From: Aromatoleum bremense
Lineage (GTDB): Bacteria; Pseudomonadota; Gammaproteobacteria; Burkholderiales; Rhodocyclaceae
NCBI RefSeq assembly: GCF_017894365.1
Contig: NZ_CP059467.1
Coordinates: forward strand, 868,001 to 932,000
Length of the DNA stretch: 64,000 nt
Direction of reading: 5' to 3'
Within the stretch, counting starts at the first letter, position 1. Every line of letters begins with the position of its first letter. Made by a program: the position numbers and the translations under genes. Of the stretch, positions 5,405-31,023 are shown one piece after another. The notes beneath the pieces were generated by a model. That model saw only the letters and a list, made by a program, of their open reading frames with translations. It was not told the DNA's origin and searched no databases.

Positions 5405-7248
5405 GAGGCCACCTTGCGGATCGGACTGATTTTGCGGTCGGACAGGGCATCGGCGATCCTGCCGCTGATGAATCGCGCAGTGATCGGCGAGCCGTCGTAA
5501 TGCAGCACGCGGACGAGCTTCTTCGGATCGATCTCGCCTTCGTTGATCAGCAGCGAGCGTAGTTGCCCGCTCTCGTTCTGCTCGACGACGAACACCTGCT
5601 CGTGGTCGGCGATGAACTGCATGATCTCGTCGCAGAACGGGAAGCCGCACACGCGCAAGGTGTCGACGTGGATGCCGTCGGCTTCGAGCAGCGCGCCGGC
5701 CTCGGCCATCGCCGGACTCGTCGAACCGTAGTAGATCACGCCGATGCGGGTCGGCTGGGCAGCCTTCTTCAGGATTGGCGCCGGCACGAGCGCCTTCGCG
5801 GTGTCGAACTTCCTCCGCAGCCGCTCCATGTTGTAGACGTAGTCGGTGCCGGCCTCGCTGTACTTGGCATACGCATTGCGGGTCGTGCCGCGCGTGAAGT
5901 AGGCACCTTTCGTCGGATGCGTGCCGGGAATCGTGCGATACGGGATGCCGTCGCCGTCGACGTCGAGATAGCGGCCGAAGTCCTTGCCGGCTTCGAGGTC
6001 TTCGTAGGTCATCAGCTTGCCGCGGTCGTAGCGGCGGCTGTCATCCCAGTCGAACGGCTTGCACAGCGATTCGTTCATGCCCATGTCGAGGTCGGACAGC
6101 ACGAACACCGGCGTCTGCAGGCGGTCGGCGAGATCGAAGGCCAGCGCGCCGAACGTGAAGCATTCGTACGGGTTTTCCGGGAACAGCAGGACGTGCCGCG
6201 TGTCGCCGTGCGACGCGTAGGCGCAGGCCAAGAGATCGGACTGCTGCGTGCGCGTCGGCATGCCGGTCGAGGGGCTGCCGCGCTGCACGTCGAAGATCAC
6301 CGCCGGAATCTCGGCGAAATACGCCAGGCCGAAGAATTCCTGCATCAGCGAGATGCCGGGGCCGGACGTCGCGGTGAAGGCGCGCGCGCCGTTCCACGCC
6401 GCGCCGATGACCATGCCGATCGAGGCGAGCTCGTCTTCGGCCTGCACCGCGGCGTAGCGCGCATGCCCGCTGTCGGGGTCGGTGCGGAATTTGCGGCAGT
6501 AGCTCGTGAAGGATTCGATGACCGACGTCGACGGCGTGATCGGGTACCAGCCCGCCACGGTCGCCCCGCCATACACCGCGCCCAGGCCGCAGGCGCTGTT
6601 GCCGTCGATGAAGATGCGGTCACCCACGGCGTCGGCGCGCCTGACGGTGAGGCCGATCGGACACGGCAGGTGCGCCCGCACATAGTCGTAGCCGAGGCGC
6701 AGCGCATGCACGTTGGCCTGGATCAGCGGATCCTTGCCGCGGTAGCGATCGACGATCAGCGCTTCGGCAACGCTGAACTCCATGTCGAGCAGCGCGATCA
6801 GGGCGCCGACGTACATGACGTTCTTGAACAGCTGGCGCTGGCGCGGATCGGTGTATTCGCGGTTGCACATCGCTGTCAGCGGCACGCCGAGCACGGTGAT
6901 GTCGTCGCGGAACTTCGACGCCGGCATCGGCTTCGTCGAGTCGTAGAAAAGGTAACCGCCGGCATCGACGGCGGCGACGTCGCGATCCCAGGTCTGCGGG
7001 TTCATCGCGATCATCATGTCGCAGCCGCCGCGCGCGCCGAGCCAGCCGGCTTCGGACACGCGCACCTCGTACCAGGTCGGCAGGCCCTGGATGTTCGACG
7101 GGAAGATGTTGCGCGGCGCGACCGGCACGCCCATGCGCATCACCGCACGCGCGAAGAGCTCGTTCGCGGACGACGAGCCCGAACCGTTGACGTTCGCGAA
7201 TTTGATGACGAAGTCGTTGCTGCTTTCGATCGATTGTGCGCTTGTCAT
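5401..7248 (-). CDS. korA: 2-oxoacid:acceptor oxidoreductase, fused gamma-alpha subunit, KorA-type
   Basis: A 615-residue subunit. The N-terminal gamma domain (about 10-190, with FANVNGSGSSSANELFARA and EAGWLGARGGCDMM) is fused to the alpha domain, which opens GNSACGLGAVYGGA and carries the hallmark GWYPITPSTSVIE, then GPGISLMQEF and the C-terminal domain II ending in a helix. The gamma-alpha fusion is typical of KorA/VorA-type enzymes. The ATG at 7248 overlaps the korC stop by four bases (ATGA), and its own stop overlaps korB the same way. The longer upstream frame is only korC read out of register. In anaerobic aromatic degraders this enzyme type supplies low-potential electrons from the TCA cycle for benzoyl-CoA reduction. 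Confidence 0.88.
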   Translation of the reverse strand: MTSAQSIESSNDFVIKFANVNGSGSSSANELFARAVMRMGVPVAPRNIFPSNIQGLPTWYEVRVSEAGWLGARGGCDMMIAMNPQTWDRDVAAVDAGGYLFYDSTKPMPASKFRDDITVLGVPLTAMCNREYTDPRQRQLFKNVMYVGALIALLDMEFSVAEALIVDRYRGKDPLIQANVHALRLGYDYVRAHLPCPIGLTVRRADAVGDRIFIDGNSACGLGAVYGGATVAGWYPITPSTSVIESFTSYCRKFRTDPDSGHARYAAVQAEDELASIGMVIGAAWNGARAFTATSGPGISLMQEFFGLAYFAEIPAVIFDVQRGSPSTGMPTRTQQSDLLACAYASHGDTRHVLLFPENPYECFTFGALAFDLADRLQTPVFVLSDLDMGMNESLCKPFDWDDSRRYDRGKLMTYEDLEAGKDFGRYLDVDGDGIPYRTIPGTHPTKGAYFTRGTTRNAYAKYSEAGTDYVYNMERLRRKFDTAKALVPAPILKKAAQPTRIGVIYYGSTSPAMAEAGALLEADGIHVDTLRVCGFPFCDEIMQFIADHEQVFVVEQNESGQLRSLLINEGEIDPKKLVRVLHYDGSPITARFISGRIADALSDRKISPIRKVAS

Positions 7249-9032
7249 GACCTGGGCGCCTCCGCTCCGGCTTGTGCTACGTCGATAGTGAATTTCTGCA
7301 TGTCCCATGCGCCGGTCGGGCAGCGCTCGGCGCACATGCCGCAGTGCAGGCAGACGTTCTCGTCCTTGACCATCACCCGCCCGGTCTTGAGCCCTTCGGC
7401 CAGATACAGCGACTGCTCCGCGTTGCGCGACGGGGCTTTGAGCCGTCCGCGCAGCGCTTCCTCTTCGCCGTTGGCGGTGAAAGTGATGCATTCGGTCGGA
7501 CAGATGTCGACACAGGCATCGCACTCGATGCACAGCTTCGGCGTGAAGATCGTCGCGACGTCGCAGTTCAGGCAGCGTTCGGTTTCGCCGCACGCGAGCT
7601 TGAGGTCGTAGCCGAGTTCGAATTCGAGCTTGATGTCCTTCAAGGCATCCTCGAGCGTCTTCACCGGCACCTTGCGCCGCGCTTCCTCGGACACCTTGTT
7701 GTCGTAGCTCCACTCGTGGATGCCCATCTTCTGGCTGACGAGATTGACGAGCGGCCCGGGCCGGTTCGTCAGCGGTTCATTGCGGCAGAACAGATCGATC
7801 GAGATCGCCGCATCGTGCCCCTGCGCGACCGCGGTGATGATGTTCTTCGGCCCGAGCGCCGCATCGCCGCCGAAGAACACGCGCGGCAGCGTCGACTGCA
7901 GCGTCGTGCGGTCGAGCACCGGCATGCCCCAGCGGTCGAACTCGACGCCGATGTCGCGCTCGATCCACGTAAAGGCGTTTTCCTGGCCGATCGCGAGCAG
8001 CACCTCGTCGCATTCCATGTGCACGTCGGGCTCGCCGGTCGGCACCAGCGAGCGCCGCCCGGCGGCGTCGTATTCGGCCTGCACCTTCTCGAACAGCACG
8101 CCGGTCAGACGCCCGTTGTCGTGCGTGAATTCCTTCTGCACGAGGTAGTTGTGGATCGGGATGCCTTCGTGCAGCGCGTCCTCCTTCTCCCACGGCGAGG
8201 CTTTCATCTCGTCGAAGCCGCTTCGCACGACGACATGCACGTCTTCGCCGCCGAGGCGACGCGCCGAGCGGCAGCAGTCCATCGCGGTGTTGCCGCCGCC
8301 GAGCACGATGACGCGCCTGGCGATGCTCGTCACGTGGCCGAACGCGACGTTCGACAGCCAGTCGATGCCGACGTGGATGTTCGCCGCGGCCTCCTGGCGT
8401 CCCGGCAGCTCGGCGTCGCGCCCGCGCGGCGCGCCGGTGCCGACGAAAACGGCGTCCCAGTTGTCGGCGAGCAGGTCGCGCAGGCTGCCGATCCACTCGC
8501 CCTGGCGCAGCTCGACGTCGAGGCCGGCGATATAGCCGCACTCCTCGTCGATGACGCTGTCGGGCAGGCGGAATTTCGGGATCTGGCTGCGCATCATGCC
8601 GCCGGCCGACTTGCCGCTGTCGAACACGGTGACGCTGTAGCCCTGCACCGCCAGATCGCGCGCGACCGTCAGCGAAGCGGGACCGGCGCCGACGCAGGCG
8701 ATGCGCTTGCCGTTCTTCACGGTCGGCGCTTTCGGCAGCCGCTCGTGGATGTCTTCCTTGAAATCGGCGGCGACGCGCTTGAGGCGGCAGATCGCGACCG
8801 GTTCCTTGTCGACGCGCCCGCGCCGACAGGCCGGCTCACAGGGACGGTCGCACACGCGGCCCAGGATGCCGGGGAACACGTTGGAGCGCCAGTTGAGCAT
8901 GTACGCGGCGGCGAAATCGCCCGCCGCGATCTGGCGAATGTATTCGGGGACGGGGGTATGGGCCGGACAGGCCCACTGGCAGTCGACGACCTTGTGCAGG
9001 TAGTCGGGCGCGCTGATGTCGGTCGGTTTCAA
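7245..9032 (-). CDS. korC: GltD-like FAD/NAD(P) subunit with C-terminal ferredoxin domain, partner of KorAB
   Basis: A 595-residue protein. The N-terminal cysteine domain of glutamate-synthase small subunits (DCQWACPAHTPVPEY; RVCDRPCEPACRRGRV) precedes an FAD Rossmann motif (CVGAGPASLTVARDLA), an NAD(P) motif (VLGGGNTAMDCCRSARRLG) and the second FAD motif (FFGGDAALGPKNI). A C-terminal extension adds two 4Fe-4S motifs (CIECDACVDICPTEC and CLHCGMCAERCPTG) plus further cysteines. It probably passes electrons from KorAB to NADP+, or back towards ferredoxin. I chose the TTG at 9032 because AGGAAGG lies just upstream and protein-like sequence begins there; the open frame runs on to 9254 but reads as junk. 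The symbol follows the functional analogy and is provisional. Confidence 0.8.
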   Translation of the reverse strand: MKPTDISAPDYLHKVVDCQWACPAHTPVPEYIRQIAAGDFAAAYMLNWRSNVFPGILGRVCDRPCEPACRRGRVDKEPVAICRLKRVAADFKEDIHERLPKAPTVKNGKRIACVGAGPASLTVARDLAVQGYSVTVFDSGKSAGGMMRSQIPKFRLPDSVIDEECGYIAGLDVELRQGEWIGSLRDLLADNWDAVFVGTGAPRGRDAELPGRQEAAANIHVGIDWLSNVAFGHVTSIARRVIVLGGGNTAMDCCRSARRLGGEDVHVVVRSGFDEMKASPWEKEDALHEGIPIHNYLVQKEFTHDNGRLTGVLFEKVQAEYDAAGRRSLVPTGEPDVHMECDEVLLAIGQENAFTWIERDIGVEFDRWGMPVLDRTTLQSTLPRVFFGGDAALGPKNIITAVAQGHDAAISIDLFCRNEPLTNRPGPLVNLVSQKMGIHEWSYDNKVSEEARRKVPVKTLEDALKDIKLEFELGYDLKLACGETERCLNCDVATIFTPKLCIECDACVDICPTECITFTANGEEEALRGRLKAPSRNAEQSLYLAEGLKTGRVMVKDENVCLHCGMCAERCPTGAWDMQKFTIDVAQAGAEAPRS

Positions 9033-23112: not shown

Positions 23113-23240
23113 GGTTTCCTCCATAGGTTGAACCGTCGAAGGCGACGGCAGATAAACCTTGAAGTGAGGAAGTAGGTCTGCGCTGCCGCAACTGAAAGTG
23201 TCATAGAATGTCAAAAACTGACATTCATTCGGAGCCTGCC

Positions 23241-23513
23241 ATGTCCTTGAACGTTTCTCTTCCCCCAGAACTGGAAAACCGCGTTCGCCAACACGTCGAG
23301 TCTGGTCTCTACAGCTCCGCCAGTGAGGTCATCCGCGAAGCCCTGCGCCTGTTCGAGGCCTACCAAGGCGTCCAGGCCGCCAGCCTGGCCGCTTTGAAGA
23401 CGGACATCGCCCAAGGTGTCAGCGACATCGAAGCGGGGCGGGTGCGCGGGGTCAGCATGGCCGAAATCAAGGAACGGGGACGCGCTGTGTTGGCCGCCCG
23501 GAAATCGGTGTAG
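23241..23513 (+). CDS. parD: ParD-type antitoxin, without partner
   Basis: A 90-residue protein. The N-terminus MSLNVSLPPELENRVRQHVE followed by YSSASEVIREALRLFE is the ribbon-helix-helix of ParD/CC2985 antitoxins; the C-terminal helix (DIEAGRVRGVSMAEIKERG) would bind the toxin. The ATG at 23241 follows GGAGCC; an ATG at 23208 is less likely. No ParE-type frame follows, so it is an orphan antitoxin, which may act as anti-addiction or be a remnant. Confidence 0.82.
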   Translation: MSLNVSLPPELENRVRQHVESGLYSSASEVIREALRLFEAYQGVQAASLAALKTDIAQGVSDIEAGRVRGVSMAEIKERGRAVLAARKSV

Positions 23514-23757
23514 TGGGTTCTCCCCCATCGGCAAGGGGTCGGATTTCAAATTGCACCCTTGTGGCGGCGACGCCGCGCAGCGCCTGAAAGACGAGATCGA
23601 GGCCAAGGCCGCTCTGTCACCACTCAAACGAGTTTGATGATGGCGGCAACGGCGGCCATGCCGGCGAAGATTGCGCCCATGGTCCAGCGCTGCATTTCGG
23701 TGATCGCCTTCAAGCAATGAACGTAAGCCATGCATGGATGAGGAGGTCCCGCCTCCC

Positions 23758-23855
23758 CGTAGCCCGGATGAAGGCCGCAGGCCGGAATCCGGGGAAGCCC
23801 TCGGCGCACCGATGTCGGCCGTTCCCGGATTCCGCTGCGCTGCATCCGGGCTACG
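23758..23855. repeat. REP-like inverted repeat
   Basis: The outer arms CGTAGCCCGGATG (23758-23770) and CATCCGGGCTACG (23843-23855) are exact complements. Inside them CCGGAATCCGGGGAA faces TTCCCGGATTCCG. Such 'GTAGCCCGGATGAAG' palindromes are a common dispersed intergenic element in G+C-rich proteobacteria. No other copy was seen in this window. Confidence 0.7.
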
Positions 23856-23934
23856 CGGCTGCGGAACGGCGGTCGTGGACGGCCTGTGTCGAACATCCAG
23901 CCATCGCGTCCACTCCGACCTAATTTCGGCATAT

Positions 23935-23960
23935 TGCAAAAAAGTCGCGACTTTTATGCA
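23935..23960. promoter_or_regulatory. Operator-like palindrome upstream of the DUF4143 ATPase
   Basis: AAAAGTCGCGACTTTT (23940-23955) is a perfect 16-base palindrome. With one mismatched pair it extends to TGCA on both sides (23935-23960). It ends 22 bases before the ATPase ATG, where a repressor would block transcription or where a cruciform could form. The binding protein is unknown. Confidence 0.6.
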
Positions 23961-23981
23961 TCAGTCGATAAGATGGTCGCC

Positions 23982-25115
23982 ATGAAGCGCTATCTCGATG
24001 AACAGGTTTCCAAAGATCTGCAAAGCAAGGCGGTCGTGCTTACCGGTCCCCGGCAGGTGGGCAAGACGACCCTCGCGCGTCAGTTGATGCAGACCTTCCC
24101 GTCCGCTCAGTATCTGAACTGGGACGTCGCCGCTGACCGGGCCATCCTGCAGCGGCAAAGCTGGAGCCCACGTGCGCGCCTGCTGGTACTTGACGAAATC
24201 CACAAGATGCCCGACTGGAAGAACTGGCTGAAAGGCATCGTCGATGGCAAGCCGCCGGAACAAGCCCTCCTCGTCACCGGCAGCGCCCGCATGGAAACCT
24301 TCCGCCAGAGTGGAGAATCGCTCGCTGGCCGCTACTTCGCGCTACGCCTGCACCCGATTTCGGTACGCGAGTGGTGCGAGATGTGCGGTGACTCCCCCGA
24401 CGCGGCCCTCGACCGCCTGATCGCGCGCGGCGGCTTTCCGGAACCCTGCCTCGCGGACGATCCGGTGGATGCCAACCGCTGGCGACAGCAGTACTTCACC
24501 GACCTCATCCGCGAAGACGTGGTGGAGTTCTCCCGCATCCACGAAATCAACACCATGCGCATCTTCGTCGAGTTGCTGCGCGAGCGCGTCGCCTCACCGC
24601 TCTCGCTGGCGTCGATCGCGCGCGACCTGGCGGTCTCGCCTGCCACCCTCAAGCGTTACCTCGATATCCTCCAGGCCCTCTTCATCGTCTTCACCGTCCA
24701 GCCGTGGCACCACAATGTCGCCCGCGCCATCCTGCAAACGCCCAAGGTCTACTTCTTCGACACCGGCCTCGTCCGTGGCGACGACGGCGTGCGCTACGAG
24801 AACGCCGTCGCCACGATGCTGCGCAAGCACGTCGACTTCCTCCACGACACGCAGGGCATGAACGTCGGGCTGCATTACATTCGAACGAAGGACGGCGCCG
24901 AAGTCGACTTCGCCCTGTCGGAGGAGAATCGCCTGACCCAACTCATCGAATGCAAGCTCGCCGACACCACGCCCCATCGCGCGCTTGTCGGCTTCGCCGA
25001 GCGTTTTCCCGACGCCCGGGCGGTGCAACTGGTGCGCGAACTCAGGCAGGAGGAACTGCGCGGGCGCACCGAGGTGGTCCGGGCTGCGCCCTGGCTGGCT
25101 GGACTGGCTGCCTGA
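23982..25115 (+). CDS. AAA+ ATPase with DUF4143 domain
   Basis: A 377-residue ATPase. Walker A GPRQVGKTT lies at 22-30, Walker B LLVLDEIHKMPDW near 66-78, and sensor region LLVTGSARMETF follows. A winged-helix stretch (LSLASIARDLAVSPATLKRYLDIL) precedes the C-terminal DUF4143 part, which contains nuclease-like VDFALSEENRLTQLIECK. These widespread ATPases are found in mobile and defence-rich regions; their function is not established. The ATG at 23982 was chosen over an ATG at 23973 because the conserved domain begins MKRYLDEQV. Directly after it lies a possible 25-residue tail of another gene (to 25198), too short to name. Confidence 0.88.
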   Translation: MKRYLDEQVSKDLQSKAVVLTGPRQVGKTTLARQLMQTFPSAQYLNWDVAADRAILQRQSWSPRARLLVLDEIHKMPDWKNWLKGIVDGKPPEQALLVTGSARMETFRQSGESLAGRYFALRLHPISVREWCEMCGDSPDAALDRLIARGGFPEPCLADDPVDANRWRQQYFTDLIREDVVEFSRIHEINTMRIFVELLRERVASPLSLASIARDLAVSPATLKRYLDILQALFIVFTVQPWHHNVARAILQTPKVYFFDTGLVRGDDGVRYENAVATMLRKHVDFLHDTQGMNVGLHYIRTKDGAEVDFALSEENRLTQLIECKLADTTPHRALVGFAERFPDARAVQLVRELRQEELRGRTEVVRAAPWLAGLAA

Positions 25116-25229
25116 ACACTGCGGTGGTCCGCCTGCAGCACGAACTCATCCGCACATACTTCCCCGCCGGCGACAAGAAGATCCTGTTTTGCCATTAACA
25201 TATTCGGCTCCTTCCCCCGGAGCCTTGCG

Positions 25230-26195
25230 ATGGCCTCCCCCGCCGACGACTACGACAGCCCGTGGAAAAGCGCCGTCGAACACGCTTTTCCCGAATTCAT
25301 CGCTTTCTACTTTCCCGACGCCGACCGCCGCATCGACTGGTCGCGCGGCCACGACTTTCTCGACCAGGAACTGCGCCAGGTCGTGCGCGACGCCGAACTC
25401 GGCCGCCGCCATGCCGACAAGCTCGTGCGCGTGCACGACCACGACGGCCGCGAGGACTGGGTCTATATCCACATCGAGATCCAGGGCCGCCGCGACAGCG
25501 GTTTTGAAAAGCGCATGTTCGTCTACAACTACCGCATCTTCGACCGCTACGACCGCCCCGTCGCGAGCCTCGCCGTGCTCGCCGACGACGACCCGCACTG
25601 GCGCCCGGCGCGCTACGGCTTCGAGCTCTTCGGCTGCCGCCACGCGCTCGATTTCCCCGTCGCCAAGCTCACCGATTTCGATTCCCGCGCCGACGCGCTC
25701 CTCGCCGACCCGAACCCTTTCGCCCTCGTCACCGCCGCCCACCTCCACACCGCCCGCACGCGCCACGACCCGCAAAACCGCTTCGAGGCCAAGCGCCGCC
25801 TCGTCCGGCTGCTCTACGAGCGCGACTGGAACAAGCAGCGCATCCTCGAATTCTTCGGCGTGCTCGACTGGATGATGCGCCTACCCAAAGAGCTCGAAAC
25901 CAAACTGTGGCACGATATCGAAACCATTGAAGGAGAACGCAAAGTGAAATACGTCACCAGCGTCGAACGCCTCGCCCTCGAACGCGGCAAGCGGCAAGGG
26001 CTGGAGGAAGGATTGGAGGAAGGGCTGATCAAAGGCGAGCGGGGGGCGCTCGAACGTCTCCTCACTCGCCGCTTCGGGCCGCTGCCGCCGGCCGTTGCGG
26101 AGCGTCTCGAGAAGGCAACGGGCGAGCAGCTCGAACTGTGGCTGGATCGACTGCTCGACGCGCGCACGCTCGACGATTTGTTCGTCGGGAATTGA
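25230..26195 (+). CDS. rpnA1: Rpn family PD-(D/E)xK nuclease, copy A
   Basis: A 321-residue protein of the recombination-promoting nuclease / transposase_31 (YhgA-like) family. N-terminal domain: FPEFIAFYFPDADRRIDW, HDFLDQELRQV, catalytic D in HADKLVRVH, then YIHIEIQG, which provides the E-x-Q variant of the PD-(D/E)xK core usual in Rpn. The C-terminal part (from about 239) is a KYVTSVERL start, an EEG-rich helix and a DUF4351 domain (LLTRRFGPLPPAVAERL to DARTLDDLFVGN). Rpn proteins in E. coli are DNA endonucleases, toxic when unrestrained, and linked to phage defence. Symbol is descriptive only. Confidence 0.88.
   Translation: MASPADDYDSPWKSAVEHAFPEFIAFYFPDADRRIDWSRGHDFLDQELRQVVRDAELGRRHADKLVRVHDHDGREDWVYIHIEIQGRRDSGFEKRMFVYNYRIFDRYDRPVASLAVLADDDPHWRPARYGFELFGCRHALDFPVAKLTDFDSRADALLADPNPFALVTAAHLHTARTRHDPQNRFEAKRRLVRLLYERDWNKQRILEFFGVLDWMMRLPKELETKLWHDIETIEGERKVKYVTSVERLALERGKRQGLEEGLEEGLIKGERGALERLLTRRFGPLPPAVAERLEKATGEQLELWLDRLLDARTLDDLFVGN
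25944..26195 (+). CDS. Internal small Rpn protein (RpnS-like), copy A
   Basis: Inside rpnA1 and in the same frame, AAGGAG (25930-25935) stands eight bases before GTG (25944), giving an 83-residue product VKYVTSVERLALERGK...DDLFVGN. E. coli rpn genes are reported to encode such internally initiated C-terminal antitoxins. Support from this window: an almost identical 83-codon sequence (one residue different) exists as a separate gene at 29377-29628 with the same ribosome-binding site and GTG. Confidence 0.7.
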   Translation: MKYVTSVERLALERGKRQGLEEGLEEGLIKGERGALERLLTRRFGPLPPAVAERLEKATGEQLELWLDRLLDARTLDDLFVGN

Positions 26196-26265
26196 CAGCG
26201 AGATCACGTCGTTCGCGGCCTGCTCGGGAGCAGCACGACATTCCCGACCATCGAAGGACAACCCC

Positions 26266-26787
26266 ATGGCGAAGTACATCACCAGCATTGAGCGCATCGG
26301 GCGCGTCGAAGGCAAGCGGGAAGCGATCCAGTATCTCCTTACTCGCCGCTTCGGGCCGCTGCCGCCGGCTGCTGCGGAGCGTGTCGCGCAGGCGAAGCGC
26401 GAGCAACTCGAACTCTGGCTGGATCGGTTGTTCGATGCGCGCACGCTCGATGATTTGTTGGACCCGGATTCGCTGGATTACGGAGAAATGAGGTACACCA
26501 CCAGCGTCGAGCGCCTCTCCTTCAATCGGGTGCTGCAAGAAGGATTTCAGGAAGAACTTCTGAAATCGCATCGGGAGGGATTTCGGAAAGGGTTCCTGGA
26601 CGGGTTTCACCAGGGCCGGACCGAAGGCACCCGCAGCGTCCTCAGCCGCCTGCTCACTCGCGGTTTCGGGCCGCTCCCGACGGAGGTCGCTGAACGTCTG
26701 GGAAATGCCCCGGTCGAGCAACTCGAATGGTGGGCGGAGCAGATCGACAACGCCCGCAAGCTCGACGACGTGTTCGTCGGAAGGTGA
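26266..26787 (+). CDS. Two-module DUF4351 protein without nuclease domain, copy A
   Basis: A 173-residue protein made of two RpnS-like modules. Module 1 (1-74): AKYITSIERIGRVEGK, then LLTRRFGPLPPAAAERV and DARTLDDLL. Module 2 (75-173): MRYTTSVERLSFNR, a Gly/Glu/Phe-rich helix (EGFRKGFLDGFHQGRTEG), then LLTRGFGPLPTEVAERL and NARKLDDVFVGR. ATG at 26266 with AAGGAC upstream. Module 2 begins at an in-frame ATG (26488) behind CGGAG, but the spacing is short. No PD-(D/E)xK residues are present; a role as inhibitor of Rpn is inference from its resemblance to RpnS. Confidence 0.75.
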   Translation: MAKYITSIERIGRVEGKREAIQYLLTRRFGPLPPAAAERVAQAKREQLELWLDRLFDARTLDDLLDPDSLDYGEMRYTTSVERLSFNRVLQEGFQEELLKSHREGFRKGFLDGFHQGRTEGTRSVLSRLLTRGFGPLPTEVAERLGNAPVEQLEWWAEQIDNARKLDDVFVGR

Positions 26788-26813
26788 AGCGCCGCCTTCG
26801 AAGCCGGGGGGGA

Positions 26814-26930
26814 TACTCCGGCTTCCGCCGCCTGCGAAATGTTGATGTTCAACGACTTCGCTTCGGCCAGCAGCGATTCGCCGAGCGTCACGTTCGTGCC
26901 CTGGCGCGCCGATCCCTTCGTTGTCGGAAC
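26814..26930 (-). pseudogene. ccdA: Truncated ccdA antitoxin, copy A
   Basis: On the minus strand the sequence reads TTKGSARQGTNVTLGESLL then AEAKSLNINISQAAEAG, the DNA-binding N-terminus of CcdA antitoxins, after which similarity stops. The toxin-binding half and ccdB are missing. There is no start here because the upstream part is separated by the prlF-yhaV insertion (see 28191-28231). Confidence 0.65.
26896..26923. repeat. 28-bp direct repeat, left copy
   Basis: GTGCCCTGGCGCGCCGATCC followed by CTTCGTTG. It matches 28191-28218 in 27 of 28 bases. The two copies flank the prlF-yhaV module and lie inside ccdA coding sequence. Confidence 0.85.
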
Positions 26931-27062
26931 GCCAGCGTCGCAAGGTTTTCAGGCCGACCTTCCATCGGCCGGCAACCTGCTTCCGGTCATCACGGGGTAG
27001 CGCCTCTTCTTCTCCAAGACTGATGACCCCATGACAACGCTGCTCGCCGCAGAAGCCAAGCC

Positions 27063-27569
27063 TTACGGCGTGACGCCAGCGGCGAACCGCTGCAAGCGCT
27101 CCCCCTCGGCCCGGGCCTCGGCCAGCAACTGGTTCCAGTCATCCGGCGGATGGCCGCTTTCCAGCATCTTGCGAAACACCCGGTAGGCGTCGTCGCTGCT
27201 CTCATAGGCGCGCTTGGTATCCTCGTCGTTGACCCACGCGAACACGATCACCTTGCTGGGCGCGTGGTACCGGAAGAAGAGCCGGTACTGCTGGAAGAAT
27301 TTCGCCCGGAACCAGTGCTTGTGATCGTCGCCAAGGGTGCCGCCTTGGCGGTATTCAGGACGGGCCGGGTCTTGCGGGACGACGTCGAAAGCGAGCTTGG
27401 TGATCGCCGCAAGGCGCTTGCTGGCGTTCTTCTTGTTGTACCCGGTCGGATCTTTCTGTTTCAAGGCCTCGACCTGATGCGCCAGCGCTTCAATCTGTGC
27501 GAGGAATAGCGGGTGGGCAAAGATCGTCCAGCCGTGAATGACCAGGGGCGCGTGCTTGCCCGTGCTCAT
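27063..27569 (-). CDS. yhaV: YhaV-type toxin (ribosome-dependent RNase of the RelE superfamily)
   Basis: A 168-residue toxin. N-terminus NGW-type motif appears as VIHGWTIFAHPLFLAQIEAL; the RelE-like core contains KRLAAITKLAFDVVPQDP, FRAKFFQQYRLFFRYH and VIVFAWVNDEDTKRAYES, all typical of YhaV. It cleaves RNA and is neutralised by PrlF. The ATG at 27569 overlaps the prlF stop (ATGA), the usual antitoxin-first arrangement. Length matches the family, so it is probably intact. Confidence 0.92.
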   Translation of the reverse strand: MSTGKHAPLVIHGWTIFAHPLFLAQIEALAHQVEALKQKDPTGYNKKNASKRLAAITKLAFDVVPQDPARPEYRQGGTLGDDHKHWFRAKFFQQYRLFFRYHAPSKVIVFAWVNDEDTKRAYESSDDAYRVFRKMLESGHPPDDWNQLLAEARAEGERLQRFAAGVTP

Positions 27570-27895
27570 TCATCGTCTGCTGACAGGGCAGCATCAAGAT
27601 CGACCTCGATGCCACCGACCAGCGACTGGAGCCGTTGGACAAGGCCCGCATCCACCGCCTGCAGGCGCTCGGGATGGCTGGCAATGTCGCGGGCCAGAAA
27701 GCCCAGGAACTGCCCGAGCACCGGGTCGTCACCTTCGTGGCTTGCAGCGCGGGTCAGCACCACCTCGCCACTGGGGCGGATGCTGTAGTGAATCTTGTCG
27801 CGCTTGCCCAGCCGCAGGGCGCGACGCACGGTTTCCGGCACCGTGGTTTGATAACGGTCGGTCAACGTGGATTCGACGTCGAGGGTGGCAGGCAT
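27566..27895 (-). CDS. prlF: PrlF-type antitoxin
   Basis: A 109-residue protein with an AbrB/MazE-like swapped-hairpin domain at the N-terminus (ESTLTDRYQTTVPETVRRAL, then KRDKIHYSIRPSGEVVLTRA) and an acidic helical C-terminus (FLARDIASHPERLQAVDAGL, then ALSADDE) that would bind YhaV. It represses its own promoter in known systems; the promoter here carries two matching palindromes. ATG at 27895, preceded by GGAGAG. Confidence 0.92.
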   Translation of the reverse strand: MPATLDVESTLTDRYQTTVPETVRRALRLGKRDKIHYSIRPSGEVVLTRAASHEGDDPVLGQFLGFLARDIASHPERLQAVDAGLVQRLQSLVGGIEVDLDAALSADDE

Positions 27896-27923
27896 GGCGC
27901 TCTCCGGTCAAAGGATGGATGCC

Positions 27924-27969
27924 TTGCATGGTAATGCAACCACCTTGTCTGGTCAATGCATATGCATTG
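27924..27969 (-). promoter_or_regulatory. prlF-yhaV promoter with two palindromic operators
   Basis: On the minus strand TTGACC and TACCAT are 17 bases apart. The -10 lies inside the dyad TTGCAT-N4-ATGCAA (27924-27939), and the -35 overlaps the end of the perfect 16-base palindrome CAATGCATATGCATTG (27954-27969). Both dyads share the half-site TGCAT, so one protein, probably PrlF or PrlF-YhaV, could cover both promoter elements. Confidence 0.65.
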
Positions 27970-28190
27970 TCTGCGGTTGCTGCCATCCTGTTCGGAGTTT
28001 CGGAGGGCGACTGGCTACCAGGGGGCGTATCGAACGCTGACCACCAGGTCCGACCGATGTCCGCCGAACCTCCGCCCTCAACCTCTTCGTCATGTCTGCC
28101 CTCCATGCAACTGTTTGTGTCGGGAACAGGGAACATGACGTCGCTGAGAATGGGAAGTCAAATTGATTATGGAAGCGTGCTCGGAACCCG

Positions 28191-28218
28191 GTGCCCTTGC
28201 GCGCCGATCCCTTCGTTG
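28191..28218. repeat. 28-bp direct repeat, right copy
   Basis: GTGCCCTTGCGCGCCGATCC followed by CTTCGTTG, one base different from 26896-26923. It is codons 5-14 or so of the ccdA start on the minus strand. Confidence 0.85.
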
Positions 28219-28231
28219 CGATCGTTCTCAT
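28191..28231 (-). pseudogene. ccdA: 5' end of ccdA antitoxin
   Basis: The ATG at 28231 opens MRTIATKGSARKGT, after which CcdA similarity stops at the repeat border. Joining this to the copy A fragment through the 28-bp repeat gives one frame: MRTIATKGSARKGTNVTLGE and onward, the normal CcdA N-terminus. Confidence 0.6.
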
Positions 28232-28362
28232 GGCAATTCTCTGATGAGAGATGTACGAATGTTGGCTTACATGTGCATGAATCGCACCAGCAGCGCGTTA
28301 CATCGTGGCGACGCTTTCTGTCTATTGGTTTAACATAATCGCCTTTCATCGCGAAAGCCCCC

Positions 28363-29352
28363 ATGGCCCTCCCCGCCGACGACTACGACAGCCCGTGGAA
28401 AAGCGCCGTCGAACACGCTTTTCCCGAATTCATCGCTTTCTACTTTCCCGACGCCGGCCGCCGCATTGACTGGTCGCGCGGGCACGACTTTCTCGACCAG
28501 GAACTGCGCCAGGTCGTGCGCGACGCCGAACTCGGCCGCCGCCATGTCGACAAGCTCGTGCGCGTGCACGACCAGGACGGCCGCGAGGACTGGGTCTATA
28601 TCCACATCGAGATCCAGGGCCGCCGCGACAGCGGTTTTGAAAAGCGCATGTTCGTCTACAACTACCGCATCTTCGACCGCTACGACCGCCCCGTCGCGAG
28701 CCTCGCCGTGCTCGCCGACGACGATCCGCGCTGGCGCCCGGCGCGCTACGGCTTCGAGCTCTTCGGCTGCCGCCACGCGCTCGACTTCCCCGTCGCCAAG
28801 CTCACCGATTTCGATTCCCGCGCCGACGCGCTCCTCGCCGACCCGAACCCTTTCGCCCTCGTCACCGCCGCCCACCTCCACACCGCCCGCACGCGCCACG
28901 ACCCGCAAAACCGCTTCGAGGCCAAGCGCCGCTTGGTCCGGCTGCTCTACGAGCGCGACTGGAACAAGCAGCGCATCCTCGAATTCTTCGGCGTGCTCGA
29001 CTGGATGATGCGCCTACCCAAAGAGCTCGAAACCAAACTGTGGCACGATATCGAAACCATTGAAGGAGAACGCAAAGTGAAATACGTCACCAGCGTCGAA
29101 CGCCTCGCCCTCGAACGCGGCAAGCGGGAAGGGCTAGAGGAAGGTCGTGAGGAAGGTCGTGAGGAAGGTCGTGAGAAAGGCCGCGCCGAAGGCGGAAGCG
29201 CGCTGCTCGGCCGCCTGCTCGCACGCCGCTTCGGGCCGCTGCCGAAACCCGTCACCGAGCGCCTTGCCCGTGCCACGACGGATCAGCTCGAAGTATGGGC
29301 CGAGCGCGTGCTCGATGCGCGCACGCTTGAGGACGTCTTCGTGGAGAACTGA
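28363..29352 (+). CDS. rpnA2: Rpn family PD-(D/E)xK nuclease, copy B
   Basis: A 329-residue protein, nearly identical to copy A over the first 250 residues (visible changes D to G in PDAGRRIDW, A to V in HVDKL, H to Q in HDQDG, H to R in DDPRW), with the same catalytic D and EIQ. The C-terminus differs: an EEGREEGREEGREKG repeat leads into LLARRFGPLPKPVTERLARA and ends LEDVFVEN. The break in identity lies just after the KYVTSVERLALERGK start of the C-terminal module, so only the regulatory module has been exchanged. Confidence 0.88.
   Translation: MALPADDYDSPWKSAVEHAFPEFIAFYFPDAGRRIDWSRGHDFLDQELRQVVRDAELGRRHVDKLVRVHDQDGREDWVYIHIEIQGRRDSGFEKRMFVYNYRIFDRYDRPVASLAVLADDDPRWRPARYGFELFGCRHALDFPVAKLTDFDSRADALLADPNPFALVTAAHLHTARTRHDPQNRFEAKRRLVRLLYERDWNKQRILEFFGVLDWMMRLPKELETKLWHDIETIEGERKVKYVTSVERLALERGKREGLEEGREEGREEGREKGRAEGGSALLGRLLARRFGPLPKPVTERLARATTDQLEVWAERVLDARTLEDVFVEN
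29077..29352 (+). CDS. Internal small Rpn protein (RpnS-like), copy B
   Basis: The same AAGGAG plus GTG (29077) as in copy A occurs inside rpnA2, giving a 91-residue C-terminal product with the new DUF4351 sequence. The prediction rests on the conserved ribosome-binding site and spacing; no expression evidence is possible from sequence. Confidence 0.6.
   Translation: MKYVTSVERLALERGKREGLEEGREEGREEGREKGRAEGGSALLGRLLARRFGPLPKPVTERLARATTDQLEVWAERVLDARTLEDVFVEN
29137..29184 (+). repeat. 12-bp tandem repeat inside rpnA2
   Basis: GAGGAAGGTCGT occurs three times exactly (29137-29172) with a fourth degenerate unit, coding for EEGR repeats. Gain or loss of units keeps the frame and would change the length of the linker helix in both the full-length and the internal protein. 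Confidence 0.9.
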
Positions 29353-29376
29353 TTCCCGCGGGAAGGAGAACGCAAA

Positions 29377-29628
29377 GTGAAATACGTCACCAGCGTCGAA
29401 CGCCTCGCCCTCGAACGCGGCAAGCGGGAAGGGCTGGAGGAAGGATTGGAGGAAGGGCTGATCAAAGGCGAGCGGGGGGCGCTCGAACGTCTCCTTACTC
29501 GCCGCTTCGGGCCGCTGCCGCCGGCCGTTGCGGAGCGTCTCGAGAAGGCAACGGGCGAGCAGCTCGAACTGTGGCTGGATCGACTGCTCGACGCGCGCAC
29601 GCTCGACGATTTGTTCGTCGGGAATTGA
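29377..29628 (+). CDS. Free-standing RpnS-like protein (displaced C-terminus)
   Basis: An 83-residue protein, MKYVTSVERLALERGK to DDLFVGN, identical to the internal product of rpn copy A except for one Q-to-E change near residue 18. It starts with GTG and its own AAGGAG, 24 bases after the rpnA2 stop. The DNA identity with the internal gene begins exactly at the ribosome-binding site. The simplest reading is that this is the former C-terminus of rpnA2, now separated by an acquired module. Confidence 0.8.
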   Translation: MKYVTSVERLALERGKREGLEEGLEEGLIKGERGALERLLTRRFGPLPPAVAERLEKATGEQLELWLDRLLDARTLDDLFVGN

Positions 29629-29705
29629 CAGCGAGATCACGCGAGCTCACGTCGTTCGCGGCCTGCTCGGAAGCAGCGCTACATTCCCGGCTATCGAAGG
29701 ACCCC

Positions 29706-30227
29706 ATGGCGAAGTACATCACCAGCATTGAGCGCATCGGGCGCGTCGAAGGCAAGCGGGAAGCGATCCAGTATCTCCTTACTCGCCGTTTCGGGCCGCT
29801 CCCGCCGGCTGCTGCGGAGCGTGTCGCGCAGGCGAAGCGCGAGCAACTCGAACTCTGGCTGGATCGGTTGTTCGATGCGCGCACGCTCGATGATTTGTTG
29901 GACCCGGATGCGCTGGATTACGGAGAAGTGGGGTACACCACCAGCGTCGAGCGCCTCCCTTTCAATCGGGTGCCGCAAGAAGGATTTCAGGAAGAACTTC
30001 TGAAGTCGCATAGGGAGGGATTTCGGAAAGGGTTCCGGGACGGGTTTCACCAGGGCCGGACCGAAGGCACCCGCAGCGTCCTCAGCCGCCTGCTCACTCG
30101 CGGTTTCGGGCCGATCCCGACGGAGGTCGCTGAACGTCTGGGAAATGCCCCGGTCGAGCAACTCGAATGGTGGGCGGAGCAGATCGACAACGCCCGCAAG
30201 CTCGACGACGTGTTCGTCGGAAGGTGA
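29706..30227 (+). CDS. Two-module DUF4351 protein, copy B
   Basis: 173 residues, nearly identical to the gene at 26266-26787 (a few changes such as RVPQEG for RVLQEG and FGPIPTE for FGPLPTE). The second module begins at GTG (29928) here rather than ATG, with CGGAG in front, so an alternative start is possible in both copies. ATG at 29706 behind AAGGACC. Confidence 0.75.
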   Translation: MAKYITSIERIGRVEGKREAIQYLLTRRFGPLPPAAAERVAQAKREQLELWLDRLFDARTLDDLLDPDALDYGEVGYTTSVERLPFNRVPQEGFQEELLKSHREGFRKGFRDGFHQGRTEGTRSVLSRLLTRGFGPIPTEVAERLGNAPVEQLEWWAEQIDNARKLDDVFVGR

Positions 30228-30253
30228 AGCGCCGCCTTCGAAGCCGGGGGGTG

Positions 30254-30364
30254 TACTCCGGCTTCCGCCGCCTGCGAAATGTTGATGTTCAACGACTTCG
30301 CTTCGGCCAGCAGCGATTTGCCGAGCGTCACGTTCGTGGCCTTGTGTCCCCCATTTCTCCCCAT
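30254..30364 (-). pseudogene. ccdA: Truncated ccdA antitoxin, copy B
   Basis: The ATG at 30364 opens MGRNGGHKATNVTLGKSLL, then AEAKSLNINISQAAEAG, a CcdA N-terminus. It breaks at the same base as the copy A fragment and runs into unrelated sequence. The first residues differ from the other two ccdA starts. No ccdB is present. Confidence 0.6.
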
Positions 30365-30393: not shown

Positions 30394-31023
30394 ATGCGAA
30401 ACGTAATAACTCAACGACGCTATGGTTACTGGCGTGAACTTCTTGAACAGTGGGTATTCCTCGTAGAGCGAATCCACCGAGTCACTGTAGAGAAACACTC
30501 CGTCTATTCGTACAAAGAGAGAACCAATGTCGGTCTTCTCGCAGCGGCAGCGACGGCCAATGGCTGGATCGCTCTGGAAGAATGCCGCTCTGAGAAGTAT
30601 TCGTCAAAGGACAGCGAAGAGGTTTACCAAGGTCGATCCGATTTACGAATATGGCGAGACAAACGGCACCACGAGATCGAGGCGAAGTTTCTTCGCATAG
30701 CCCTCACGTCTACTTCCACAACCCGCTTGACCAAAGCCGCTGAGAAGTCAGTTGCCGATGCTGCCCGTTCCGTTGAGTCAGGTGACAGATTCGATCGGAA
30801 GATTGCCGTCACGTTCGTAGTGCCAACGTTGACCAATTCCCAAGCGGACAAGTTAAGCGAGAAGATGCAATCGGAACATCAAGAACGGCTGATTAATTTC
30901 ATTCAGGAGAAGAAACCGAGCTTCATGGCTTACGCATTTCCCGGCCGCGCTCCCGTTGCCGGTTCACTAAATCGGCAAGCACTCGGGGTCATTCTTTTCG
31001 GGACCGAGCCAAGTGAAGCCTGA
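30394..31023 (+). CDS. Hypothetical protein with a possible PD-(D/E)xK motif
   Basis: A 209-residue soluble protein not recognised as a named family. G+C is visibly lower than in the flanking genes and codons are unlike the flagellar genes, suggesting transfer. Around residues 80-98 it has GRSDLRIWRDKRHHEIEAK: D83 followed by E96-x-K98, a spacing compatible with a PD-(D/E)xK nuclease core. ATG at 30394 with AAAGGTAC upstream. It is the last gene of the islet. Confidence 0.6.
   Translation: MRNVITQRRYGYWRELLEQWVFLVERIHRVTVEKHSVYSYKERTNVGLLAAAATANGWIALEECRSEKYSSKDSEEVYQGRSDLRIWRDKRHHEIEAKFLRIALTSTSTTRLTKAAEKSVADAARSVESGDRFDRKIAVTFVVPTLTNSQADKLSEKMQSEHQERLINFIQEKKPSFMAYAFPGRAPVAGSLNRQALGVILFGTEPSEA

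Follow-up and report, generated by a model that had tools for sequence, protein, structure and literature searches.

A duplicated nuclease block was identified in the genome of Aromatoleum bremense, a single contig of 4.38 Mb (NZ_CP059467.1), within a stretch of 64,000 nucleotides covering contig positions 868,001 to 932,000 (hereafter the window; coordinates are window positions unless stated otherwise). Within 25195-30364, the same block occurs twice, consisting of an Rpn-type nuclease core and a row of DUF4351 modules, the first of which is fused to the core. Comparison with relatives suggests that this is an Rpn toxin-antitoxin system carrying a module array, in which a one-unit deletion probably fused the core of one copy to a module, M1, that had formerly been free.

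The two rpn genes are located at 25230-26195 (copy A) and 28363-29352 (copy B). An earlier note, made from the window sequence alone, had described them as nearly identical, and their cores of 238 codons indeed differed at 12 of 714 nucleotides, 7 of these changes being nonsynonymous. Copy A has the order core-M1 (fused) followed by a free two-module gene, M2-M3, whereas in copy B the core is fused to a different module, M0, behind which stand a free M1 gene and then the same M2-M3 gene (Table 1). Both fused modules matched Pfam PF14261 above the cut-off, and both open with AAGGAG and an in-frame GTG, as the note had read them. Its account of the module relationships was reproduced as well: free M1 was 99% identical to the fused module of copy A (one residue changed; 2 of 249 nt) vs 67%, with the longer length as denominator, to the M0 of its own copy. 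M0 is 8 residues longer than M1, with the extra length in the repeat helix, and much of the tail also differs. The array behind both cores is otherwise alike, copy B being copy A plus one 300-bp unit. Neither this exact unit, the only large difference between the blocks, nor the M2-M3 gene behind both copies had been noticed in the note.

Table 1. Features of the duplicated rpn block, in window coordinates.
Feature	Position	Strand	Remarks
Copy A Rpn-type PD-(D/E)XK nuclease core, 238 codons	25230-25943	+	catalytic pattern D63, E83-x-Q85, R95 from profile-profile comparison
Copy A internal GAAGGAG ribosome-binding site and GTG start of M1	25929-25946	+	AAGGAG 25930-25935, in-frame GTG 25944
Copy A fused C-terminal DUF4351 module M1, 83 aa	25944-26195	+	
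Copy A free gene M2-M3, two DUF4351 modules, 173 aa	26266-26787	+	
Copy B Rpn-type nuclease core	28363-29076	+	
300-bp unit carrying M0, not in copy A	29062-29361	+	
Copy B fused module M0, 91 aa	29077-29352	+	AAGGAG 29063-29068, in-frame GTG 29077
Ribosome-binding site and GTG start of the free M1 gene	29362-29379	+	start of DNA identity with fused modules
Copy B free-standing module gene M1, 83 aa	29377-29628	+	
Copy B free gene M2-M3, two DUF4351 modules, 173 aa	29706-30227	+	
PrlF-YhaV toxin-antitoxin pair	27063-27895	-	context between the copies, outside the rpn unit

A global alignment of the two copies, the comparison that the earlier note had proposed, gave the 300-bp unit as the sole large gap within the block, and the first 95 bp of this unit recur, 95% identical, at the start of the next one. 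DNA identity between free M1 and the fused modules starts 15 nt upstream of the GTG, at GAAGGAG, in line with the note, and the edge of the 300-bp unit likewise falls at the ribosome-binding site. The homology edge lay at the ribosome-binding site, 13-15 nt upstream of the start codon, in the window, in E. coli and in locus L036, and farther upstream elsewhere (26 nt in L108, 40 nt in Methylobacter); no clear homology edge was found in L034, L085 and L087. A requirement for an intact start site could account for an edge at the ribosome-binding site, with no site-specific enzyme involved. That ribosome-binding site, start codon and DUF4351 module act as a unit is supported, which upholds one half of the cassette proposal made in the note. 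The other half, an exchange of cassettes, is more than the locus needs, because the loss of one unit between direct repeats explains copy A.

An assembly artefact was rejected, since the separately assembled Aromatoleum anaerobium carries both arrays in the same form (99.0% over 5.9 kb); chance origin and misassembly of the two-copy array are both unlikely. Another rpn gene of the A. bremense genome (L115:5552-6163, minus strand; genome positions ~2374551-2375162) has lost the second half of its core, and what is left of the core runs on in frame into a module; the junction, at ACATTGAAGGAG, once more coincides with the module boundary.

For the identity of the core, a profile-profile comparison with E. 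coli RpnA/RpnE gave an alignment of 72 columns (probability 96%, E 3.9e-9), in which D63, E83, Q85 and R95 align with D63, E82, Q84 and R94 of RpnA; these residues were invariant in 36 aligned proteins. According to PMC5350276, the RpnA variants D63A, E82A and Q84K lost all three tested phenotypes, and Q84A and R94A lost recombination and kept toxicity. The core had no Pfam match, pairwise BLASTP with E. coli RpnE showed no match in the core, NCBIfam TIGR01784 stayed below its cut-off, and the PADLOC and NCBIfam hits for the rpn genes were weak or sub-threshold. A profile search of solved-structure sequences returned no Rpn relative, and the predicted structure gave middling scores against PD-(D/E)XK nucleases, no better than those of unrelated helical proteins elsewhere on the model; it also contains a predicted long helix (244-290), partly at low confidence. 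Judged by its sequence, the core is a remote branch of the Rpn family (COG5464 / RpnL-RpnS).

We then asked how far the internal start of the fused module is conserved among relatives, reducing 130 fused modules to 84 distinct ones (one frame not reaching profile position 1 was excluded). All 84 opened with ATG (73) or GTG (11), a figure that is somewhat biased since the module profile itself starts with M. A Shine-Dalgarno (SD)-like 4-mer was present upstream of the module start in 82 of the 84 vs 125 of 1010 control codons, namely in-frame ATG, GTG or TTG codons inside the same cores, and an SD-like 5-mer in 69 vs 29, respectively. The residues encoded at the site are variable (EGERK, ERNVT, EEQQT, EESKK) while the SD letters are kept, which argues for selection on the RNA. 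RpnS, which is made inside the rpn gene, blocks RpnL (Zhong et al. 2023, PMC10327210), in agreement with the internally initiated antitoxin of E. coli to which the earlier note had referred. An internal initiation site of the kind that gives RpnS is present here at the sequence level, and its conservation supports internal initiation, by which the fused modules are presumably also translated alone.

To place the free modules, 77 distinct loci were kept of at least 129 relatives in one search, and further loci came from 17, 297 and 300 genomes (partly overlapping; matches in at least 7, 52 and 16 of them, respectively). The survey was made without L001-L010 and L088-L107, most of which are covered by larger stretches, hence without the weak matches L092, L093 and L096, and also without L167-L194. 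A module outside the core frame was found in 48 of 135 scanned loci, many of these being other long proteins or duplicates. Comparisons were confined to free modules reaching profile position 1 (19 raw, 15 distinct) in arrays read in the fetched stretches, among the matches listed, and the counts are not a rate. As the note had anticipated, free units matching the fused tail of another copy or strain were found in the window, at a second A. anaerobium locus (87% identity with the tail of the rpn that follows vs 74% with its own upstream tail), in Methylobacter (first free module of L052 96% to the fused tail of L056 from another genome, 71% to its own upstream tail) and at E. coli rpnE. Six of the 15 distinct free modules were at least 83% identical to the fused tail of another rpn, better than to any upstream tail of their own; three of these six had no intact upstream rpn in the stretch, and two (L062, L155) stood behind a decayed core. 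Two others matched their own upstream tail best (L036), and seven were without a close partner (at most 79%).

It is conceivable, if doubtful, that such free modules are by-products of repeat slippage and rpn decay and functionless as free proteins, an explanation of function that would be compatible with a deletion history. M2-M3 is weakly constrained between the copies (dN/dS 0.24-0.44 in four comparisons with few changes), the module piece behind the rpn gene of A. buckelii (see below) is shortened, the cores in front of L062 and L155 are decayed, and an SD 4-mer is missing from 5 of the 15 distinct free modules (in the case of L155 at 8, owing to the contig end), all of which would fit a by-product. 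However, the open frame, ribosome-binding site and start of M1 are intact in two genomes, the 4-mer is present in 10 of the 15 free modules, and YpaA, a free module of E. coli, was detected as a protein by Zhong et al. (PMC10327210).

The direction of change was examined at the same locus, upstream of a flagellin gene (31662 in the window, Pfam), in other genomes. A. anaerobium carries both copies there, and A. buckelii and genome G009 carry one rpn gene each; no rpn gene was seen at this locus in the other Aromatoleum genomes searched (any match in 7 of 17). In both single-copy relatives the fused tail is M0, and dN/dS values of 0.05 and 0.12 indicate purifying selection on this tail. The 4-residue, EEGR-type repeats in the first helix of the variable module, as known from Rpn proteins, differ among the M0 modules of the window, A. 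buckelii and G009, A. buckelii having one repeat fewer than copy B. After its stop codon, A. buckelii has a shortened free module piece that is closest to M1 (score 64, best of 200 shuffles 37; M0, 48 and 25; M2, 40 and 26). Since a maximum-likelihood (ML) tree left the forks within the genus open, polarity was judged from counts of shared derived sites. With G009 as outgroup, 5 derived sites joined A and B apart from A. buckelii vs at most 1 for other groupings, and with Thauera as outgroup, 9 vs at most 3. With M0 fused to the core in both A. buckelii and G009, the tail of copy A is most likely a recruited spare, and the free M1 gene of copy B would not be a discarded tail. On these sequences, the simplest history would be an ancestral core-M0-M1-M2-M3, its duplication and the loss of one unit in A, with copy A most likely having lost M0 and taken up free M1 as its tail.

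Two further observations concern module fragments in these relatives. The A. buckelii remnant (L012:5001-5126) has a mosaic appearance, with an M2-like 5′ part, an M1-like middle and an M0-like 3′ end, which suggests that modules have recombined with one another. A piece of the M0 tail stands detached in A. anaerobium (L118:4363-4455), ~3.5 kb upstream of copy A.

The reverse course, in which the locus was core-M1 and a new cassette, M0, was inserted before M1 in copy B, leaving the old module as an orphan, appears unlikely to us. Taken by themselves, the A and B sequences are equally compatible with insertion and deletion, and in E. coli and Methylobacter, where the change could have run either way, insertions may occur. 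Against insertion stand the fused M0 of both other species that keep rpn here, the M1-like remnant behind it in A. buckelii, and the derived sites shared by A and B that A. buckelii is without; the insertion would have had to precede the species split, with A keeping the older state and leaving no trace elsewhere. The earlier proposal that the old tail had been displaced in B and kept as an orphan was rejected as the history of the locus on account of the M0 fused in the outgroups and the derived sites shared by A and B.

The note had likened the locus to Rhs/CDI systems, in which a displaced tip and its immunity gene are kept downstream after a new tip has been inserted. The likeness extends to the layout, with a core, a tail in use and alternative C-terminal modules stored behind the gene. 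No displaced toxin half was seen here, and the outgroups favor loss of the front unit over insertion; unlike in Rhs/CDI, the stored unit is a nuclease tail and, by analogy with RpnS, would also be an antitoxin.

A parallel was found at E. coli rpnE, for which we read 21 loci from a spread list (60 of 5371 records) plus MG1655: 15 two-unit loci (10 distinct sequence pairs), 5 one-unit loci and 1 interrupted by an insertion sequence (IS), which was dropped. In the two-unit loci, the core is fused to X and followed by free Y (ypaA), and in all 5 one-unit loci fetched, Y is fused to the core. The matched loci L203 and L206 differ by one 243-bp unit besides scattered substitutions, and AAAAGGAG marks its boundary. 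Of 5426 genomes, 3099 had the X tail together with its junction and 5363 had the Y tail, so that roughly two in five E. coli genomes would have Y without X if the loci read are typical. Thus, the rpnE-ypaA (rpnES) locus resembles the window in its series of core, fused unit and free unit, in the fusion of the second unit where the first is absent, and in a unit boundary at the ribosome-binding site; it differs in that the 20 intact loci read had at most 2 units and no adjoining second rpnE with a matching tail. Fused and free modules had equal repeat numbers in none of the 10 distinct pairs (7 distinct number combinations). The repeats were parsed in 9 of the 10 pairs, with a shortened duplicate (L205) counted as an eleventh row and the tenth pair (L210) read separately; random pairing would give 0.64 equal-repeat matches over the 11 rows counted. 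Because chance pairing also predicts less than one match, this indicates an absence of tuning and not avoidance.

The note had suggested that a retained small protein could protect the cell. Unequal repeat numbers, taken with the published rule that one extra 4-residue repeat breaks RpnC neutralization and that repeats set specificity (PMC10327210), argue against protection from the nuclease directly upstream. That the free module merely supplies an extra antitoxin dose against that nuclease is improbable, because free M1 is 8 residues shorter than its own upstream tail and matches that of the paralogue far better. In favor of an extra dose, Zhong et al. regard the downstream genes as further copies of one RpnS and found those of the RpnC and RpnE types to group with the gene in front of them (PMC10327210), and the free modules of L036 have their best match in the tail directly upstream.

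Several points weigh against deletion after duplication as the history of the block and against extending it to other loci. The IQ-TREE ML tree of the cores did not settle how A, B, A. buckelii and G009 branch; gene conversion between the two copies might give the appearance of a recent duplication; and G009 is missing the first part of its core and has no M1. The weak constraint on M2-M3 and the L036 free modules count on the same side, as do two Methylobacter arrays that are not connected by a single unit loss and the E. coli rpnE data, in which the switch could have run in either direction.

Compared with the Rpn systems of Zhong et al. (PMC10327210), the block shares the nuclease, the internal C-terminal antitoxin start (here at the sequence level) and the downstream DUF4351 genes. 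Separate downstream rpnS genes, tandem rpn arrays and, among E. coli strains, rpnS insertions and deletions as well as N-domain/rpnS fusions have already been described there, as has the lack of cross-protection between the RpnA and RpnB antitoxins. The present block differs in that three further modules stand behind the fused one of B, that the free module matches the tail of the paralogue and not its own upstream tail, and that the lost unit and its likely direction could be mapped; the core is also only remotely related. With respect to the main text and legends of that paper, the longer arrays, the exact unit, its polarity, the matches to the tail of another copy and the unequal repeat numbers in E. 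coli are new; multi-module rows, a match to the tail of an adjoining paralogue, a mapped unit with its direction and the repeat mismatch do not appear there, although its figures or supplementary information may show some of these. A literature search that left subscription journals largely uncovered gave, among the papers listed, no later one on the rpn module system.

The surroundings of the block were also examined. A 28-bp near-repeat (26897 and 28192, 2 mismatches) flanks the PrlF-YhaV pair (region 26897-28219), and the sequence holding it resembles what we take to be a ccdA-type antitoxin gene, which is apparently uninterrupted in G009 (L112 ~7240-7380). The PrlF-YhaV pair looks like an insertion into the spacer between the copies. 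Upstream of copy A, a ParD-type antitoxin gene (Pfam) and an AAA_14/DUF4143 ATPase gene were found (23208-25115), so that the region upstream of the flagellin gene in which the rpn block lies is rich in toxin-antitoxin genes. Behind copy B, an open frame of 209 aa (30394-31023) had no Pfam, NCBIfam or PADLOC match. Scans for promoters and terminators showed no clear signal above shuffled sequences.

In the deletion history that we favor, each locus would encode a PD-(D/E)XK nuclease and, starting from a ribosome-binding site and GTG inside the same gene, its C-terminal DUF4351 module as a separate RpnS-type antitoxin, and further modules with start sites of their own would stand in a row behind it. 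The common first ~95 bp of M0 and M1, ribosome-binding site included, would allow recombination or slippage to remove exactly one unit in frame. After duplication of the block, the front unit M0 would have been lost in copy A and the core fused to M1. If the module sets the pairing as in E. coli, the new protein would have had a new pairing and its own antitoxin from the outset. Since M0 and M1 differ in length and tail, the published repeat rule implies that the free M1 of B should serve the nuclease of A and not that of B. Antitoxin action, specificity and any benefit of the modules at this locus are what we infer.

More speculatively, rpn loci may widely keep a row of alternative tail/antitoxin modules, with the start that these share, namely the ribosome-binding site and the first codons, as a handle for recombination. 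If the front module were lost, the next would come to sit on the nuclease, which might switch the pairing in one step while leaving the nuclease paired with its own antitoxin. Free modules might often be cognate to a sister copy or to another state of the locus and not to the nuclease before them. Such a switch could be a selected step in the arms race of a defense gene, perhaps with the nuclease itself or phage antagonists as the driver. Our findings suggest how one deletion could alter the pairing of a gene-within-gene toxin-antitoxin system with no unprotected intermediate, and natural pairs such as A and B here, or one- and two-unit rpnE in E. coli, offer a way to tell apart what core, fused module and free module each contribute.

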